Source of the DNA: a virus
Reading direction: 5' to 3' (one strand)
IMG/VR virus record: IMGVR_UViG_3300049893_001349
Span: 1-46,752 of that record
DNA: 46,752 nucleotides
The notes beneath the pieces are model-generated. The model was not told the DNA's origin. It was given only the letters and a program-made list of their open reading frames with translations, and did not search any database. The translations under genes were made by a program, and so were the position numbers. This document shows, piece after piece, positions 20,820-34,598 of this stretch. Position 1 is the first letter of the stretch; each line of letters begins with the position of its first letter.

Positions 20820-20828
20820 GTTGTGTGC
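20820..20828 (+). other. Left recombination boundary of the cassette array (half-site)
   Basis: The sequence G-TTGTGTGC matches, as its reverse complement, the R'' box GCACACAAC at 21097-21105 of the first attC. This is expected for the joint between a non-attC acceptor (attI or secondary site) and the 5' end of the first cassette. The 60-120 bases to the left contain no paired stem-loop half, so this is not a complete attC. Confidence 0.65.
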
Positions 20829-20832
20829 AATA

Positions 20833-21087
20833 CTACCAACAATTCCAATCAACGATTCCTTTCCCATCTTTTGAAACGGAAATATAGTTTGGACATAATG
20901 AATTGATACTTTCTTCTTTTTCTGCATTTACATCTAAGTTGTAAATTTCATCAGCATTTCCTCCTATGGATGCGTAAATTTGTTCACCATCTTCTGTTTC
21001 CCCAGTAAAACTGAACGAGTACTTATAATAACCATTAAATTTTAATTTTACATTTCCGTACTTTTCTTTAATTTGTTCTAAATTCAT
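20833..21087 (-). CDS. Cassette 1 protein, unknown
   Basis: I start at the ATG at 21087 (MNLEQIKEKYGNVKLKFNG, 84 residues); the longer frame includes 11 residues that lie inside the attC. The protein is acidic, beta-rich, and ends in GKGIVDWNCW. The stop lies 12 bases from the cassette joint and the start 10 bases from the attC, so the gene fills the cassette as expected for integron cassettes. No known family recognised. Confidence 0.7.
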   Translation of the reverse strand: MNLEQIKEKYGNVKLKFNGYYKYSFSFTGETEDGEQIYASIGGNADEIYNLDVNAEKEESINSLCPNYISVSKDGKGIVDWNCW

Positions 21088-21096
21088 AACCGTACT

Positions 21097-21226
21097 GCAC
21101 ACAACACTGTATAAAATCAAGTGGGGTTATGTGCTTATTTTGACCACTTCGGCTATTTAATTTGTGCAAGTTGAAACGTGTTTGCCGTTCAATCCCCACC
21201 TGCTTTTATACTTTTACGTTAGGTGC
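21097..21226 (+). repeat. attC site A
   Basis: R'' box GCACACAAC (21097-21105), arm GTATAAAATCAAGTGGGG, loop of about 68 bases, returning arm CCCCACCTGCTTTTATAC and R' box GTTAGGTGC at 21218-21226. The arms pair over 14 of 18 positions (GTATAAAA and GTGGGG perfect). Spacers between box and arm differ (ACT on the left; TTTTAC on the right), the usual asymmetry of attC sites. Confidence 0.8.
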
Positions 21227-21230
21227 AATG

Positions 21231-21446
21231 CTATGATAACAACGCACCACACTTAATAATGTCATCAACCATTTTTTCGTTACCTTTTTCATCAGTAATT
21301 TTATTAAGTTGATAATGTCTTGCACTTCTAATCGCATCTGCTGTTAAAAGAAAAAATGCTTGAAGAAATCCGTTACAATTAACTTCTAATTGATAGGTGT
21401 GTCCTTCTGCACTTTTGAAAAATCCTGTGTATTTATAAGTTCTCAT
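21231..21446 (-). CDS. Cassette 2 protein, unknown
   Basis: Protein of 71 residues beginning MRTYKYTGFFKSAEGHTYQL, then EVNCNGFLQAFFLLTADAIRS. A beta-hairpin followed by a helix is likely. Stop 5 bases from attC A, start 27 bases from attC B. No promoter box is obvious at its start, so transcription probably comes from upstream on the minus strand. Family not recognised. Confidence 0.7.
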   Translation of the reverse strand: MRTYKYTGFFKSAEGHTYQLEVNCNGFLQAFFLLTADAIRSARHYQLNKITDEKGNEKMVDDIIKCGALLS

Positions 21447-21472
21447 TTCTATTTAAATTTGTGAGAAGCACT

Positions 21473-21567
21473 GCACCTAACAGCAAGTAAGCAATAGTGC
21501 AGAAACATTCTCGGTTAATAATTTATTTATCGTAAGCACCATCGCTTACTTGCAAACCGTTAGGTGC
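21473..21567 (+). repeat. attC site B
   Basis: R'' GCACCTAAC (21473-21481) and R' GTTAGGTGC (21559-21567) are perfect complements of each other. The arm GCAAGTAAGC on the left pairs perfectly with GCTTACTTGC on the right. The left spacer is one base (A) and the right one five (AAACC). Confidence 0.85.
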
Positions 21568-21604
21568 AAGGTTGAAATCTAAACAATGAAAATAAACTAA
21601 TATC

Positions 21605-22291
21605 ATGTTTGAAGCTATTACACATATAATCAAACTATTTACTGACAACACAATAAAGTGGACTATAAAATCCGCTACGTTTATTATCATTGTTTTGGGA
21701 CTTTGGTTCATAAATAACACATTTAATTTCCTTCATTCTTTCAGGACTAATAACAAACTTGAGCAATTAGAACGCATAGGGCAACTATTGAGAGACTCAA
21801 CACTAACACAGTCCCAAAGACAAAATCTAATGACAGATAGACAGAATATCTTTGACCATAAAACAGTATTAGATTACTTTTCGTCTTTTTGTGACTCTTT
21901 ACTAAGCCATATTTCTTTTACAAAACGAACAAGCTCATACATACAAAATACTATTATCACAACTTCAATAAACTCTTTAACTACATCTTCCATATCTTTT
22001 AAAAATTACTGGTTACATTTTATATTTAGTAATACATTTCTATTGTTATTAATGCTCGCAACACCATTTTTAGTATACAAAGAGCCAAATTCAAGTTTTA
22101 AAATAAAAACTGTCTCTATTCTTATTATTTGGGTGATGGTTTTTACAGCATGTTGGACAATGGCTTATTTACTTAATTTCATTCCTGTTATTTATAACAG
22201 ACCTTGGATTAATTACATTGTTGACTTTATAATATCTACAACTTTTTGGATTGTTTTGGTTATTCTTTTGAATAATAATTTAAAACGATGA
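21605..22291 (+). CDS. Cassette 3 integral membrane protein
   Basis: Protein of 228 residues and the only cassette gene on the plus strand. About four membrane segments are visible: residues about 17-39 (TIKSATFIIIVLGLWFINNT), 139-153 (FIFSNTFLLLLMLATPFL), 164-188 (TVSILIIWVMVFTACWTMAYLL) and 203-224 (IVDFIISTTFWIVLVILL). Between the first and second lies a soluble helical stretch. The start is 45 bases from the cassette joint and the stop 14 bases from attC C, the classic cassette layout in the plus direction. Very AT-rich compared with phage genes. A superinfection-exclusion or defence role is possible but not shown. Confidence 0.75.
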   Translation: MFEAITHIIKLFTDNTIKWTIKSATFIIIVLGLWFINNTFNFLHSFRTNNKLEQLERIGQLLRDSTLTQSQRQNLMTDRQNIFDHKTVLDYFSSFCDSLLSHISFTKRTSSYIQNTIITTSINSLTTSSISFKNYWLHFIFSNTFLLLLMLATPFLVYKEPNSSFKIKTVSILIIWVMVFTACWTMAYLLNFIPVIYNRPWINYIVDFIISTTFWIVLVILLNNNLKR

Positions 22292-22305
22292 CTATAAATA
22301 ACCCT

Positions 22306-22443
22306 GCACCTAACACCGCATTCCAGCATTTTCGGGCGGTGTGTTTTTTGGGTTCTGCACTCGCATCTCAGTTCTTTCCATAGGGGCGATACTTGTCGCT
22401 TTTGAACTCCGAAAATTGCTTAAATGCAGTGCCGTTAGCGGTC
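22306..22443 (+). repeat. attC site C
   Basis: R'' GCACCTAAC (22306-22314), the complement of the cassette 3 start TTAGGTGC. Left arm GCATTCCAGCATTTTCGG pairs with CCGAAAATTGCTTAAATGC on the right, with small bulges. R' is GTTAGCGGTC (22434-22443). The stop codon of the next minus-strand gene lies in this R' box. Confidence 0.8.
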
Positions 22444-22690
22444 AGGCTAAAAAAGACCCAACCTCGATTACACTAAATGGGACTTCTTCATATACCGAAT
22501 ATAATCCATCAAAATCTTTAGGATAGTCATTTGACATTTGCCATTCATGTTCAGCTTCTTTTGCTTCTTCATTGTCGCAAAATTCAACCATACCTTTTTT
22601 TACAGCTTCGTATTCATTTTCAGCCGATACCTGAAAAAGTTTTAAGTTATTTTCAAACATTGAAAGAATACCTACTACGTAATTTTTCAT
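22442..22690 (-). CDS. Cassette 4 protein, unknown
   Basis: Protein of 82 residues, acidic, MKNYVVGILSMFENNLKLFQ, followed by a helical EYEAVKKGMVEFCDNEEAKE segment and EEVPFSVIEVGSFLA. The fold suggests a small ferredoxin-like or split-barrel protein; many cassette genes of Bacteroidota look like this. Its TGA stop lies within the R' box of attC C, so the reading frame ends exactly at the cassette joint. Start 46 bases from attC D. Confidence 0.7.
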   Translation of the reverse strand: MKNYVVGILSMFENNLKLFQVSAENEYEAVKKGMVEFCDNEEAKEAEHEWQMSNDYPKDFDGLYSVYEEVPFSVIEVGSFLA

Positions 22691-22735
22691 AATAATAATT
22701 TATTGTTTTGGTCTTCTAAAAGCGGAGAAGCCCGA

Positions 22736-22828
22736 ACCGCTAACACTATGTTTCAGATATGGGCGATACTTTACTGGTATTACAAATATTCCTGATAGCC
22801 CACATCAGAAACATTTACGTTATGCGAA
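22736..22828 (+). repeat. attC site D
   Basis: R'' ACCGCTAAC (ends 22744), complementary to the start of cassette 4 (TTAGCGGT). The arm ATGTTTCAGATATGGGC pairs with GCCCACATCAGAAACAT. R' is GTTATGCGAA (22819-22828), the same core (GTTATGC) as in the Vibrio repeat (VCR) family. Confidence 0.85.
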
Positions 22829-22829
22829 A

Positions 22830-22997
22830 CTATAAACGGTCGAACTGCCATGCTTTTTCGCCTGTTGGCAAGTCAATTGGAAACGTAGGATTAAGATAGT
22901 TTCTAGGCTTCAATCCACGATCAAGCAAAGCTTTTTTTAGGACGGAGTACAAATGCGTTGGTACTCCGTTCTTTGTTATTACAATGTTCTTAGCCAT
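22830..22997 (-). CDS. Cassette 5 second small protein
   Basis: A 55-residue protein, MAKNIVITKNGVPTHLYSVL, then KKALLDRGLKPRNYLN and ending GEKAWQFDRL. Its ATG lies inside the last codons of the upstream cassette 5 gene (8-base overlap), so the two are translationally coupled. The stop is one base from the R' box of attC D. Family not recognised. Confidence 0.65.
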   Translation of the reverse strand: MAKNIVITKNGVPTHLYSVLKKALLDRGLKPRNYLNPTFPIDLPTGEKAWQFDRL

Positions 22998-23199
22998 TAA
23001 TTTTTACATTGAATAAATTTCTCATAACACCTAAATCGAAATTTATTTCTAATCCTTCTTTTATGGATTCGAAAATCTCTGGGTTATTTTGTTTATAAAT
23101 TGAGTAAACAAAATCCATTCCATTATACTTGAAAGAAACTCTTTTTTCAAATTGAGTAGATTTCTCAATTGTAGCGATTGTGTTTGTGTGATTTGTCAT
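22990..23199 (-). CDS. Cassette 5 first small protein
   Basis: I use the ATG at 23199 (MTNHTNTIATIEKSTQFEKR, 69 residues); the longer frame starts with TTG inside the promoter. A beta-hairpin (KRVSFKYNGMDFVYSIYKQ) and a helix precede the C-terminus NLFNVKING. It has its own promoter, unlike most cassettes. Cassette 5 thus carries a two-gene minus-strand operon. Together with the 55-residue partner it could be a toxin-antitoxin-like pair, but I see no family evidence. Confidence 0.6.
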   Translation of the reverse strand: MTNHTNTIATIEKSTQFEKRVSFKYNGMDFVYSIYKQNNPEIFESIKEGLEINFDLGVMRNLFNVKING

Positions 23200-23241
23200 T
23201 GTTTTTTTTTGTTCAATCTTAGCTTCGTTGCTTTCGATATT

Positions 23242-23249
23242 CAAATATA
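23242..23249 (-). promoter_or_regulatory. Minus-strand promoter in cassette 5 (TATATTTG)
   Basis: On the minus strand the sequence CGTATATTTGAA matches the -7 consensus TAnnTTTG. It gives a leader of about 40 bases to the ATG at 23199. The upstream 90 bases are extremely AT-rich. No clear -33 TTG. Confidence 0.6.
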
Positions 23250-23330
23250 CGTACTTATTTTAGATTTAGATACATATTATTGTATTTATTTTTAAAATAA
23301 GTACAATTTAGAACGATTAAAAATAGTGTT

Positions 23331-23386
23331 CGCATAACACCGTATTCACGCCACAAGCGGACGTGAATACTTTAAGCGTTAGCTGC
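23331..23386 (+). repeat. attC site E (short)
   Basis: Only 56 bases. R'' CGCATAAC (23331-23338) with preceding TT complements the start of cassette 5 (TTATGCGAA) over nine bases. Arm GTATTCACG pairs perfectly with CGTGAATAC. Loop is CCACAAGCGGA. R' GTTAGCTGC at 23378-23386. Confidence 0.85.
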
Positions 23387-23400
23387 AATGCCAGTGACCG

Positions 23401-24096
23401 CTAAAACAACCGAAGTTGTGATTTAAAGTCATTAAAACGCTTTTCTTGTTTCTCATAATATTCTTGGTCTATTTCAAAACCTACAAAGTTGAACCCGCCT
23501 TTATACGCTGCAATCCTACTGCTTCCACTTCCTAAATGTGTATCTAAAATCAAATCGCCTTGCTCCGCAAAATTCTTTAAAAGCCATTCATATAAATAAA
23601 CAGGCTTCTGCGTTGGGTGTATTCTTACATCATCTGCCCCAACTATTCGCTTCTTAAATATCTTTGCAGGGCTTTTAAATGAAGTCCACGCAATTTCACA
23701 CATTGCCATACTAAACGCTTCTGGTTGCACCTTATCCCACACAATAAAGCAAGGCGTTGGCTCAAGGTGTTTAATCATATAATTCGCCCCCCACACAATT
23801 TGATTTTTAGATACCCTCACAAGTTCAGCGAAATAATCCTCGTTTGGTATTTCATTATCGCCTCCAGCAAATGATTTATACTTGTTTTTATCTCCTCGTT
23901 TTTCGCTGCCCTTGTGTCCCATAGCCATATTAATTCCATAAGGCGGATCAACTACAGCCAAATCGAAGTATTTATCTGGGTACTCTTTCATGCCTTGAAT
24001 ACAATCCATCATGTACACCTCGGACGAAAAAGTACAGCCACTAACACTGTGCTTTTGCAAAAGTGGCGTTTCTTGGTTTATGCTAGTTTTATTCAT
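23401..24096 (-). CDS. Cassette 6 DNA methyltransferase (N4/N6, beta-type order)
   Basis: Frame of 231 residues. Motif IV DPPYG at residues 50-54 comes before the SAM-binding motif I (DTHLGSGSS, 185-193), with HPTQKP at 160-165 and GFEIDQEYYE after it; this order is that of beta-class amino-methyltransferases (N6-adenine or N4-cytosine). No restriction nuclease is adjacent, so it is an orphan enzyme likely to protect phage DNA. The first 28 residues are encoded by attC F (KHSVSG corresponds to its R'' box), so the true start could be the ATG at 24012 (MMDCIQGM); families of this type usually have a few residues before that point, which favours the long form. Stop is 15 bases from attC E. Confidence 0.85.
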   Translation of the reverse strand: MNKTSINQETPLLQKHSVSGCTFSSEVYMMDCIQGMKEYPDKYFDLAVVDPPYGINMAMGHKGSEKRGDKNKYKSFAGGDNEIPNEDYFAELVRVSKNQIVWGANYMIKHLEPTPCFIVWDKVQPEAFSMAMCEIAWTSFKSPAKIFKKRIVGADDVRIHPTQKPVYLYEWLLKNFAEQGDLILDTHLGSGSSRIAAYKGGFNFVGFEIDQEYYEKQEKRFNDFKSQLRLF

Positions 24097-24173
24097 GTTA
24101 TTTCAGTTTCTTGCGGTGGATACTCTCGGCTTCCTTCATGCCACTTTTTCAGAAGCACTTAGCGTTAGCTGGC
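24037..24173 (+). repeat. attC site F
   Basis: R'' GCCACTAAC (24037-24045), arm GTGCTTTTGCAAAAGTGGC, loop, returning arm GCCACTTTTTCAGAAGCAC and R' GTTAGCTGGC (24164-24173). The arms pair over most of 19 positions. Its R'' is only partly complementary to the cassette 6 start (TTAGCTGC), so this box has drifted. Confidence 0.8.
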
Positions 24174-24428
24174 ATTGTATTCGACCACCTTACCAACTAA
24201 GTGTCGATGTGGATATTTTTGCACCGCATTTTTTATGGCCTTTTCAGCTAAAGCTTGCGTTCTGAACTGCTTTGCATTTACCTTTAATAAGGTTCGCCCA
24301 GGGTCTCCTTTCCAATTGGCTAAATAAAAAGGCTCGTTTCCATTCTCGAACATTGCGAGAAAACAACGACCCGCTAACACTGTATTTGATAAATCAGGGT
24401 CGGTACTGGTGTTGGATTCTGTCTTCAT
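24165..24428 (-). CDS. Cassette 7 small protein
   Basis: Frame of 87 residues. The TAA stop is formed by the TTA of the R' box of attC F, exactly at the cassette joint. Residues 1-25 lie mostly in attC G (SNTVLAG is its R'' region); an ATG at 24353 (MFENGNEPFYLANWKGDPGR, 62 residues) is the alternative start and agrees better with the conserved-looking part. That part (LLKVNAKQFRTQALAEKAIK) resembles small proteins with a beta strand plus an amphipathic helix that occur in Bacteroidota cassettes. Function unknown. Confidence 0.65.
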   Translation of the reverse strand: MKTESNTSTDPDLSNTVLAGRCFLAMFENGNEPFYLANWKGDPGRTLLKVNAKQFRTQALAEKAIKNAVQKYPHRHLVGKVVEYNAS

Positions 24429-24503
24429 TTTAGTATAGGTTTTTACGGTTGATGGGTTCGGCTTCGTGCATCCCCTGTTTTTTCAAATACTTTACCGTTA
24501 GCA
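24371..24503 (+). repeat. attC site G (right end of array)
   Basis: R'' CCGCTAAC (24371-24378), arm GTATTTGATAAATCAGGG pairing with CCCCTGTTTTTTCAAATAC, R' CCGTTAGCAAA with G at 24497. The last TT and following bases belong to the phage target. Site G is a complete attC, as expected for the end of a plus-oriented array. Confidence 0.8.
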
Positions 24504-24518
24504 AAAATTTAAAATACA

Positions 24519-28986: not shown

Positions 28987-29173
28987 TAAACTAGTATATT
29001 CTGACGCAATAGAAAAAGCGTTCGAGTACATTGCAACTGTTTCGAAACGTAACGCTGACAGTATGAGACGTGGGGGGAAGATCACTAGGAAGTTTTTGAA
29101 AGAAGTTTCCGAAAAATTTGGCGTGCAAGCGAGCACAATAGTAAGGATAGGTAGTTATATCGTAACCGAATGA
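28979..29173 (+). CDS. Small HTH-like protein
   Basis: Protein of 64 residues with KITRKFLKEVSEKFGVQAST, then IVRIGSYIV, a likely helix-turn-helix. Overlaps the preceding gene by 8 bases and the resolvase gene by ATGA. Probably DNA binding, acting with its neighbours. Confidence 0.65.
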   Translation: MSNKLVYSDAIEKAFEYIATVSKRNADSMRRGGKITRKFLKEVSEKFGVQASTIVRIGSYIVTE

Positions 29174-29646
29174 AGGTAATTGCGATTGATTGCGGAATCC
29201 ATAACGGACTAGCCGTGTTTTGCACCGACAAACAGGAGTTTGAAACGGTTCGTACTTACCAACTTTGGGAGCTTTTCGTGATACTGGACTACGTTTGCAA
29301 GATGAACGAAGGGAACTATTCTATGTATGTCGAAAATCCCAATACATACGTACCGTTCGGCAATGCGAAAAAACAAAACGCAAAACGCCAAGGGGCTGGA
29401 GCTGTCAAACAGACGTATAAGCACATTACGGAGTTTTTGGAATCTAAAGGCTTTGATTATAAGGCTGTTACAGTAAGAAGAAACCTAAAACGGATTTATA
29501 AATTCAAAGGATCAAAGCCATCCGCCTTGGAATTTGAAACGATTACAGGTTACATTGGCAGAACAAACGAACATAACCGAGATGCCGGGATAATAGCTTG
29601 GCATTATAGTAATAATAAATTCATAATCAAAATAATACAAAAATGA
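29170..29646 (+). CDS. RuvC-like Holliday junction resolvase
   Basis: Protein of 158 residues with the RNase H-like fold signature of RuvC family enzymes: first strand VIAIDCGIHNGLAVF (D7), second acidic residue in YVENPN (E55), helix RQGAGAVKQTYKHITEFLE, and terminal H135 with D138 in HNRDAGIIA. These supply a D-E-(H/D)-D metal site. It resolves branched DNA formed in RecT-mediated replication, before packaging. Translated with ATGA overlap from the HTH gene. Confidence 0.85.
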   Translation: MKVIAIDCGIHNGLAVFCTDKQEFETVRTYQLWELFVILDYVCKMNEGNYSMYVENPNTYVPFGNAKKQNAKRQGAGAVKQTYKHITEFLESKGFDYKAVTVRRNLKRIYKFKGSKPSALEFETITGYIGRTNEHNRDAGIIAWHYSNNKFIIKIIQK

Positions 29647-30699: not shown

Positions 30700-31350
30700 T
30701 TCTGCAAACCATTTCAAGATTATTTGGCAAAAAAAACAAATCAAAAAAGAAATTAGAAAACAAATCTTGTAACTATTTGAATATCAGAATTCTAATTACC
30801 TTTCAACTGTTCGGAAATATCGAACAGTTAATCAAATAACCATCAAATGACCATCAAATGAAAAGTTAGTTGTTCGACATTTCCGAATAACTTGAAATCA
30901 ATATCTTAACATCAAACTATTTTGTCAATCACTTTTTTGATTTTTTGATTGGCTACATTCCGACATTGATGTAGGAGACATATCACTCTAATCATTGGTG
31001 TAGAGTGTAGAGTGTAGAGTGACTGATACATTTTAAATGTACTAGTAGAGTATTAAAACATATAATTCATGTACACCTATAATATATTTTATATAATACA
31101 TATTGAGCGTGTGTAAATTCTATATAATTTACACTGTACCAGTTGATGCATTAATTTTTTTATGAATTTATTTTAATGGCTTGACCGTGCCATTGTAACT
31201 GATTGATTTAAAATCAGTCAGTTATAAAAACAAGGATTCTTGTTTTTATAAAAATAGAAAATTCTAGTTTTATAAACTTGGTAAAATAAAACACAAAAAC
31301 AGTTTGCAAATATGGTTTTGTTTTGTAGTTTAGTATTCAAAATATATAAA
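30700..31350. other. Palindrome- and repeat-rich intergenic region, candidate origin or control region
   Basis: About 650 bases without a credible gene. Contents: paired TTCG-N7-CGAA inverted repeats (30805-30829, 30868-30892); direct repeat ACCATCAAATG twice (30839-30860); GTGTAGA three times in tandem (30998-31018); GTGTAAATT-N6-AATTTACAC (31111-31134); a 14-bp imperfect palindrome (31196-31224); and a perfect 12-bp hairpin TATAAAAACAAG-GATT-CTTGTTTTTATA (31223-31250). The AT-rich stretch at 31050-31160 suits DNA opening. Divergent genes lie on both sides. Confidence 0.65.
30805..30892. promoter_or_regulatory. Paired operator-like inverted repeats
   Basis: Copy 1: AACTGTTCG-GAAATAT-CGAACAGTT (9 bp, perfect). 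Copy 2: AGTTGTTCG-ACATTTC-CGAATAACT (one wobble), 63 bases further. Both have the core TTCG-N7-CGAA with the same 7-base spacer. This is the form of a dimeric repressor site, placed between divergent early transcription units. Confidence 0.7.
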
Positions 31351-32145
31351 ATGAAAGCCAAACCAACTCTACACATTCAAAACGAGGTGCATACTAACAC
31401 CGTTAATGTTGCTGAAAATTTAGAAATAAGACATGTCAATTTATTGAGAACTGTAAAAAGGCTTATTAGGAATGGCATGGAAGATTGTTTCTTTGAAAAG
31501 TTTTTTACAAACAAGCAAGGCAGAACTTACCCGATGTACGAAATGACAACAAAGGGATATGTAGCATTAGAGACTATCTATTTAATGTCAGATAGTTGCG
31601 ACAGAGTTGATTGCGAATTAAACAAACTTGCAAAAGAAAATGATGTTGTATATTTTATTACAAATAACAATGGCAGTGTTAAGATTGGTTACACAAGTGC
31701 TATAAGAACAAGATTGAGCGCAATTCAACTAGCGTGTGATACTTATTGCGAAATAATAGCAACTATTAAAGGTGGCAAAGAGCTTGAGAAACAAGCTCAT
31801 GAGTTTTTTAAAGAAAAAAGACTTAGCGGAGAGTGGTTTAGTATAGACGACGAGGATATATGCGACTTTGTATTTCAATTCAAATTGAAGGCAAATATAA
31901 GATATTACGAAACAATTAGAGGGATATTGTATGATTTATGGAATGATTCAGACGAAAGTGAAGAGCCTAATTTTGATGACATTTATAAAGTAAATACAAA
32001 AGAAGCGATGACGAAAGTTTTGATGGTCATAAAATACGGTATGGAGCAAAAGATGCACTACAAGGACATTTATCATTACGCTAAAGAAGAAGTAAACAAG
32101 CTTGCGGATGTGTTGATTTTCACGCCTAAAAAAATCAGAAAGTGA
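31351..32145 (+). CDS. Rha-like domain fused to MUG113/T5orf172 GIY-YIG-type nuclease domain
   Basis: I start at the ATG at 31351 (MKAKPTLHIQNEVHTNTVNV, 264 residues). Residues about 15-80 (LEIRHVNLLRTVKRLI, FEKFFTNKQGRTYPMYEMTT, KGYVALETIYLM) are the phage Rha-type regulator domain. Residues about 90-165 (VVYFITNNNGSVKIGYTSAI, RTRLSAIQLACDTYCEIIAT, EKQAHEFFKEKRLSGEWFSI) match the MUG113/T5orf172 branch of GIY-YIG nucleases. The C-terminal third is helical. The fusion suggests a regulator with nuclease activity at the start of the replication operon. It follows the repeat-rich region. Confidence 0.7.
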   Translation: MKAKPTLHIQNEVHTNTVNVAENLEIRHVNLLRTVKRLIRNGMEDCFFEKFFTNKQGRTYPMYEMTTKGYVALETIYLMSDSCDRVDCELNKLAKENDVVYFITNNNGSVKIGYTSAIRTRLSAIQLACDTYCEIIATIKGGKELEKQAHEFFKEKRLSGEWFSIDDEDICDFVFQFKLKANIRYYETIRGILYDLWNDSDESEEPNFDDIYKVNTKEAMTKVLMVIKYGMEQKMHYKDIYHYAKEEVNKLADVLIFTPKKIRK

Positions 32146-33746: not shown

Positions 33747-34598
33747 ATGAGCAACTTAACAACAAAACAGATTTTCGACCGACCAGACATTAAGTCGAAG
33801 ATTAGCGAGGTAATGAACACTAACAGCACGGCGTTTATTACAACTGTATTGCAAATAGTAAACTCAAACGATCTTCTGAAGGATGCAGACCCGTTAAGCG
33901 TTTACAATGCTGCCATGATTTCGGCAACGTTGAACCTTAACATTAACCCAAATTTCGGTTACGCCTATATTGTGCCTTACAAGGGGAAAGCTCAATTTCA
34001 GATGGGATGGAGAGGGTATGTCCAATTGGCACTACGAACCAACCAATACAAGGAAATCGGAGTGAAAGAAGTATTCCAAGGCCAATACATAGAAGACGAC
34101 TCCATAAGAGGCTTTAGGTTTTCTTGGAGCGCAAAAACATCCGATGTAGTAATCGGTTATGTAGCTTGGTTTTCGCTTCTTAACGGATTTGAGCAAGTTA
34201 TTTACATGCCAAAGGATAAAGCACATGCGCACGGGAAAAAGTACTCACAAACGTTTAAAAATGGTCGAGGACTATGGGTAGATGACTTTGATTCTATGGC
34301 AAAGAAGACAGTTTTAAAACATTTGTTGCAAAAATATGGCATTTTGTCTACGGAAATGGAAAAGGCTATTGTTACCGACCAAGCAGTAATTAAGAATTAC
34401 GAAACACAAGAGCTTGAGTATGTTGACAATGAAGTAACTCACGAAAGTCCAGAAGAAAAGAAAATCAGACTTTCAGAACTATTCGAAAGCTTAGAAGACA
34501 AGCTAACTGATCCAGAAAAACAAGCAATCAGAAAAACGATTTCTGAAAGTATTGTTTCGGAGTACGACAAAACAATTAACTACCTAAAAACTAAGTAA
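33747..34598 (+). CDS. recT: RecT single-strand annealing recombinase
   Basis: Protein of 283 residues. The hallmark block LNLNINPNFGYAYIVPYKGK, AQFQMGWRGYVQLALRTNQY (residues about 64-105) is the RecT signature. KTVLKHLLQKYGILSTEMEK at about 190-210 also agrees with the family. Anneals complementary single strands exposed by the exonuclease next door, which supports replication through concatemers. Has its own promoter. Confidence 0.95.
   Translation: MSNLTTKQIFDRPDIKSKISEVMNTNSTAFITTVLQIVNSNDLLKDADPLSVYNAAMISATLNLNINPNFGYAYIVPYKGKAQFQMGWRGYVQLALRTNQYKEIGVKEVFQGQYIEDDSIRGFRFSWSAKTSDVVIGYVAWFSLLNGFEQVIYMPKDKAHAHGKKYSQTFKNGRGLWVDDFDSMAKKTVLKHLLQKYGILSTEMEKAIVTDQAVIKNYETQELEYVDNEVTHESPEEKKIRLSELFESLEDKLTDPEKQAIRKTISESIVSEYDKTINYLKTK

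Follow-up and report, generated by a model that had tools for sequence, protein, structure and literature searches.

The window, by which we mean the whole stretch of 46,752 bases analyzed here, is a virus contig (G000) that carries genes for a terminase, a portal protein, a major head protein, tail proteins, an endolysin, SSB, a RecT-type protein, and a Holliday junction resolvase. It also contains an array of genes and palindromic sites, flanked by the end of the late genes that bears the endolysin and by leftward genes; the features of this array are listed below. The scores are those of R1, a covariance model that was built from 41 aligned chromosomal sites alone, all of them bacterial, with none taken from the window or from any phage.

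20820-20828, + strand: opening box GTTGTGTGC, the right half of a site or an entry point; pairs exactly with the left box of site 1
20833-21120, - strand: cassette 1 gene, 95 aa, unknown, no confident family (cassette about 20821-21218)
21097-21226, + strand: attC-like site 1, core 21103-21220; 57.2 bits, E 6.3e-12; hairpin on the - strand
21231-21446, - strand: cassette 2 gene, 71 aa, unknown (cassette about 21219-21559)
21473-21567, + strand: attC-like site 2, core 21479-21561; 46.9 bits, E 2.1e-9; - strand fold z -7.2
21605-22291, + strand: cassette 3 gene, 228 aa, no family match (cassette about 21560-22434)
22306-22442, + strand: attC-like site 3, core 22312-22436; 31.4 bits, E 1.4e-5
22442-22690, - strand: cassette 4 gene, 82 aa, unknown (cassette about 22435-22819)
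22736-22827, + strand: attC-like site 4, core 22742-22821; 31.5 bits, E 1.3e-5
22830-22997, - strand: cassette 5 second small gene, 55 aa, unknown (cassette about 22820-23378)
22990-23244, - strand: cassette 5 first small gene, 84 aa, unknown (same cassette)
23330-23386, + strand: attC-like site 5, with the shortest loop, core 23336-23380; 25.7 bits, E 3.4e-4
23401-24096, - strand: cassette 6 gene, DNA N6/N4 methyltransferase, PF01555 E 2e-16, phrog_67 E 7e-39 (cassette about 23379-24164)
24037-24172, + strand: attC-like site 6, core 24043-24166; 26.8 bits, E 1.8e-4
24165-24428, - strand: cassette 7 gene, 87 aa, unknown, start inside the loop of site 7 (cassette about 24165-24497)
24370-24505, + strand: attC-like site 7, core 24376-24499; 36.4 bits, E 8e-7

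The seven palindromes that a sequence-only reading of this DNA had picked out all lie where it placed them, and an AAC...GTT core was located in each. The top R1 matches in the record were exactly these seven, all on the + strand (E 6e-12 to 3e-4), and the next-best match had an E value of 0.62; the failure in a site model that would have refuted the earlier reading thus did not occur, and all seven sites are real. The eighth half-box that it had implied at the opening of the array (GTTGTGTGC, at 20820) is also present, and is preceded by C, as are the right halves of attC sites, whereas attI-like boxes have A at this position. Regarding the rule RYYYAAC...GTTRRRY for the R'' and R' boxes, AAC and GTT occur in 7/7 sites and the variable bases fit loosely, by which the rule is met. 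Folding of the bottom strand, which had been proposed as a check, gave a - strand hairpin in all seven, and the - strand fold was more stable than the + strand fold in 5/5 sites compared, in agreement with the recombining bottom strand of attC.

The window sites do not show the two extrahelical bases in the R''/L'' arm that mark the proteobacterial type. Instead of the left-arm bulges that were seen in canonical attC sites, they have conserved mismatches near +8 and +17 and, occasionally, one additional base in the opposite arm. A scan of the window at the Rfam gathering threshold returned no match. The first structural scan, which demanded box pairing inside one site, missed sites 4 and 5, the internal box mismatch of which is expected of cassettes. 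A structural scan for AAC, arm, loop, arm, and GTT found 125 sites in 87 loci versus 4.0 per dinucleotide shuffle; it is no general attC finder because proteobacterial attC sites were detected poorly, owing to their two bulges.

The claim that the first bases of each cassette are complementary to its own R'' box was borne out by a comparison, over six variable box bases, of the right box before each cassette with the left box at its end. The observed matches amounted to 39/42 bases, a value reached by 2 of 5040 permutations, whereas the left and right boxes inside one site matched at 23/42. The values for cassettes 1 to 7 were 6, 6, 6, 6, 6, 4, and 5 of 6, such that closure was imperfect in 2/7 (cassettes 6 and 7), and two of the boxes entering this test are identical to each other. 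A search of the record with PF00589 was empty, consistent with the earlier statement that the genome has no tyrosine recombinase. Taken together, the R1 sites, the matching cassette ends, and the lack of a PF00589 match support the proposal of an integron-type cassette array without an integrase; the definition of a CALIN (at least two attC sites and no integrase in the element) is satisfied, and the segment at 20820-24505 is a CALIN, an attC cluster without an integrase, of a phage.

Regarding the cargo, the product of cassette 3 is probably a membrane protein as judged by eye, its gene is the only cassette gene in the window to run in the same direction as the sites, and a search for a viral relative of this protein found none. 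The cassette 2 protein has an 88% identical relative on another virus contig (L288), where the gene adjoins a site with different arms. The start codon of the methyltransferase of cassette 6 lies inside the loop of site 6, and this protein has relatives in many phage cassettes.

The array is not fixed in this kind of phage, since no site was found in the 16.5 kb surrounding a 63% identical endolysin in a related contig (L040). On the contig of a relative identified by its capsid (L011:1265-1400), a single strong R1 site was observed (92.9 bits). Elsewhere in the window, a protein encoded at 31312-32145 has antirepressor/Rha-like and endonuclease-like matches, a hint of temperate ancestry although the record contains no integrase.

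The bases common to chromosomal and phage sites are the A after AAC, T(+9), A(+17), and the C before GTT (approximately 93-98% each). AACA, T(+9), A(+17), and CGTT are invariant in the 41 aligned chromosomal sites, the arms of which covary (0.433 versus 0.124 +/- 0.012), and occur in 7/7, 6/7, 6/7, and 7/7 window sites, respectively, such that the window sites were observed to belong to the R1 family. At an E value of 0.01, R1 had no match in the 12 XerC/D, 7 random, or canonical-integron loci searched; at 1e-5 in whole genomes, it matched 63/118 Bacteroidota and 0/94 Gammaproteobacteria. This family of sites is very common in Bacteroidota and seems to have remained unrecognized.

In six site-bearing Bacteroidota genomes, no canonical IntI was found; their tyrosine recombinases match the IntI model on both flanks of the patch. 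We picked 20 loci of such patch-less recombinases regardless of sites, and observed sites within the surrounding 15-kb stretches in 17/20 (16/20 when only full-length sites were counted), versus 0/12 XerC/D loci (Fisher 2e-6) and 0/7 random stretches. A further control locus (L230) has R1 sites nearby; the recombinase encoded there is IntI-like, 316 aa long, and occurs several times in its genome (G126), and it may represent another enzyme type belonging to the system. Flavobacteriales arrays are located 3' of the recombinase gene; at L179 (5904-9520), contrary to the other loci, the array is 5' of its recombinase (296 aa). The closing box of the first cassette is located 34-124 bp after the recombinase stop in 11/17 loci, mostly in the context TATAnAnnAGTT, a motif that follows 16/28 recombinases versus 3.9% of background windows. 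We read this box as a putative attI site, and the chromosomal loci, having a recombinase that adjoins an array together with this box, fulfill the definition of a complete integron. The locus G054:C1:114818-145041 in Flavobacteriales is superintegron-like: its array exceeds 30 kb, has its listed sites on one strand, and runs toward a patch-less recombinase at 146875. Speaking against a role of such enzymes in phage arrays, the patch-less recombinases in the two Flavobacterium genomes with arrays that were examined (G001 and G003) have no adjoining sites.

The patch-less proteins lack two IntI blocks (31 and 10 alignment columns) in 29/29 cases and most of them have an N-terminal extension of approximately 62 residues. 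In the match to IntI4 (2a3v), residues 181-242 are skipped, and the best full-length relatives with a solved structure are XerA/XerC-like (4a8e, E 3e-42). The four patch-less proteins that were scored whole did not reach the TIGR02249 cut-off (182-216 bits versus 265). Therefore, the patch-less recombinase is no IntI by the accepted definition, and on sequence grounds it looks like a sister type. Its position between XerA and IntI is unsettled because the recombinase tree includes no more than three rows of canonical IntI and was flagged for long branches. The patch has been regarded as indispensable to IntI (Messier and Roy, 2001, as cited in PMC9668308), and surveys use it to define IntI (PMC2426708, PMC9668308).

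Genes in chromosomal arrays run along the sites in 27 cases, against them in 3, and mixed in 2 (summed over loci), whereas those in phage arrays, the window included, run against the sites in 39 cases and along them in 3; in most loci, these counts rest on the longest ORFs and not on annotation. Owing to this opposite orientation, phage cassettes resemble a separate pool. The methyltransferase cassettes of phages have their start codon inside the hairpin loop. An attempt to read array polarity from bulged bases, in the manner of proteobacterial attC, was contradicted by the breakpoints, which were preferred.

A search with the cassette 6 methyltransferase pointed to Flavobacterium phages. The complete genomes of the cultured phages hemulen6-1, stinky9-1, and filifjonk9-1 contain 14, 12, and 13 sites, respectively, with none in shuffles, and between sites there are one or few genes, many of which encode methyltransferases. 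Since the phage loci were fetched via the methyltransferase, their gene content is biased. R1 matches these arrays as well as the sites of Polaribacter phage P12002L, and box closure also holds in phage and chromosomal arrays. Cassette-wise presence and absence among related phages, the lack of which would have counted against the earlier reading, was observed: hemulen6-1 and stinky9-1 are more than 99.9% identical in the compared array regions outside 1181 bp, which correspond to two whole cassettes absent from stinky9-1, with the junction at a CGTT box. In 17 of the 25 virus contigs that carry a common methyltransferase cassette, this cassette keeps its site and gene nearly constant while its neighbors change and its outer box varies by contig; because site and gene stay together and the outer box differs, the exchange point is on the outer side of the hairpin. 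Hybrid sites, with one arm of the common methyltransferase cassette and the other from a different site, were seen in three contigs (L053, L067, and L072), suggesting that exchange may also occur inside the hairpin. On a 17-kb contig binned with a Chitinophagaceae MAG (L092, 1453-14052), nine sites form two opposed arrays with phage-type gene orientation; this contig may be a phage or a plasmid.

An explanation that we consider unlikely, but which survives better than the other alternatives, is that the sites are relics and that the homologous recombination of the phage swaps modules between short conserved borders, for which no site-specific enzyme is needed. The genome has a RecT-type annealing protein (33747-34598) and a Holliday junction resolvase (29170-29646), hybrid arms exist, and the difference between hemulen6-1 and stinky9-1 could also have arisen in this manner because its junction lies in a short repeat. 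Homologous recombination leaves unexplained the matching cassette ends (at least 5/6 matches in 46/54 phage pairs), the compensatory changes in the arms, and the fact that the same sites are linked to both an attI-like box and a recombinase.

It is very doubtful that the cassettes were moved by a canonical, patch-bearing IntI of another bacterium. One site of P12002L was recombined by IntI1 in E. coli (PMC9892861); however, a canonical IntI above the cut-off was found in 0/198 Flavobacteriales versus 88/229 Gammaproteobacteria genomes, mostly as one unbroken match in the latter, and R1 sites are lacking from the 94 gammaproteobacterial genomes. The reading of the palindromes as transcription terminators or mRNA hairpins between genes, which draws on their intergenic position and on the fact that the best-folding - strand is the sense strand of most genes, was rejected as scarcely credible: start codons lie inside loops, boxes match between neighboring sites and not inside one site, and the AACA, T, A, and CGTT bases are invariant. 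A chimeric assembly joining integron DNA of the host to a phage contig, conceivable only insofar as the record is a metagenome assembly, was dismissed because similar arrays are present in cultured, sequenced phages and the gene orientation relative to the sites is of the phage and not the chromosomal type.

As the best explanation of the whole, to which we assign a probability of roughly 0.75, we regard the locus as a seven-cassette integron array of a tailed flavobacterial phage, dependent on a patch-less integrase of the host and carrying anti-restriction cargo; the host was not identified and no recombination was observed. Each cassette consists of one gene (two in cassette 5) and a hairpin-forming attC-type site of the Bacteroidota family. 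The data establish the structure of the sites and the family to which they belong, the ends of the cassettes, their presence or absence as units, and the chromosomal linkage of sites to the recombinase. We infer that the - strand is the one used: once folded, it would be cleaved within the right-hand box between AA and C (between G and TT on the + strand), and a cut at this point would allow the cassette to leave or enter as a circle and the two box halves to pair. The enzyme would most likely come from the host, and its action on phage sites is an inference; the candidate is the patch-less IntI-like tyrosine recombinase that adjoins similar sites in Flavobacteriales chromosomes. The benefit is likewise inferred, in that phages may retain cassettes for their cargo, chiefly orphan methyltransferases that would guard phage DNA from host restriction, and cassette genes turned against their sites may, as a guess, be read by the leftward transcription of the phage.

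It also appears fairly probable that Bacteroidota have their own integron lineage, with a recombinase that lacks the IntI patch and was overlooked by surveys demanding it, and that flavobacterial phages hold a separate cassette pool with genes inverted relative to the sites, which serves as a swappable anti-restriction kit. The case for this lineage rests on linkage and structure and not on activity. Integrons have been described as nearly absent from Bacteroidota, and IntegronFinder 2.0 listed one complete integron in Bacteroidetes, in Salinibacter ruber (PMC9024848). If the family works, integron-type sites are present in approximately half of Bacteroidota genomes, one lineage can do without the patch that has been considered essential to integrase activity, and the cassettes of Bacteroidota have a second reservoir, and possibly a vehicle, in phages. 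It would also provide a mechanism for the methyltransferase differences that accompany host range among near-identical Flavobacterium phages.

The presumption that attC clusters are rare in phages did not hold: Qi et al. (2023, PMC9892861) described 17 phage CALINs, including that of P12002L with the site recombined by IntI1, and among flavobacterial phages such clusters are not rare. Phage CALINs are thus already known, whereas the chromosomal Bacteroidota sites with a patch-less integron-like enzyme were found described nowhere within the literature searched; no paper on integrons with attC in Flavobacteriia was found in this search, which excluded subscription papers and preprints. The CALINs of Qi et al. 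(2023) resemble the window in being attC clusters without an integrase, in virulent phages, with methyltransferase cargo, and the sites of P12002L belong to the same R1 family. They differ in that the window has more sites (7) and the Flavobacterium phages 12-14; moreover, the main text of that paper does not name Flavobacterium phages, and the paper links no Bacteroidota recombinase to the sites, and reports a divergent orientation, whereas the flavobacterial phage arrays described here are systematically inverted. In Muminvirus-type Flavobacterium phages, in which the same arrays were found in our analysis, variable methyltransferases and host-range effects have been reported without mention of integrons or cassettes (Nilsson et al., 2020, PMC7077304). 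Those without one methyltransferase plated 1000-10000 times worse on one host (PMC7077304), and the identity of this gene with that of a deleted cassette has not been established.

Among full-length proteins of solved structure, the patch-less enzyme is closest to XerA and archaeal XerC-like recombinases, the known substrates of which are double-stranded dif-like sites and not cassette hairpins. With Vibrio-type superintegrons, the chromosomal loci share long co-directional arrays, sites of approximately 124 bp, one recombinase, an attI-like entry, and matching cassette ends. In contrast to these superintegrons, the Bacteroidota recombinase lacks the patch and has the N-terminal extension of approximately 62 aa, the array lies at the 3' end of the recombinase gene and none was found in Gammaproteobacteria, and the sites have conserved mismatches in place of two bulged bases in the left arm. 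The sites are thus not of the well-studied proteobacterial type, but constitute a Bacteroidota family that has invariant bases of its own and is linked to a patch-less integrase.
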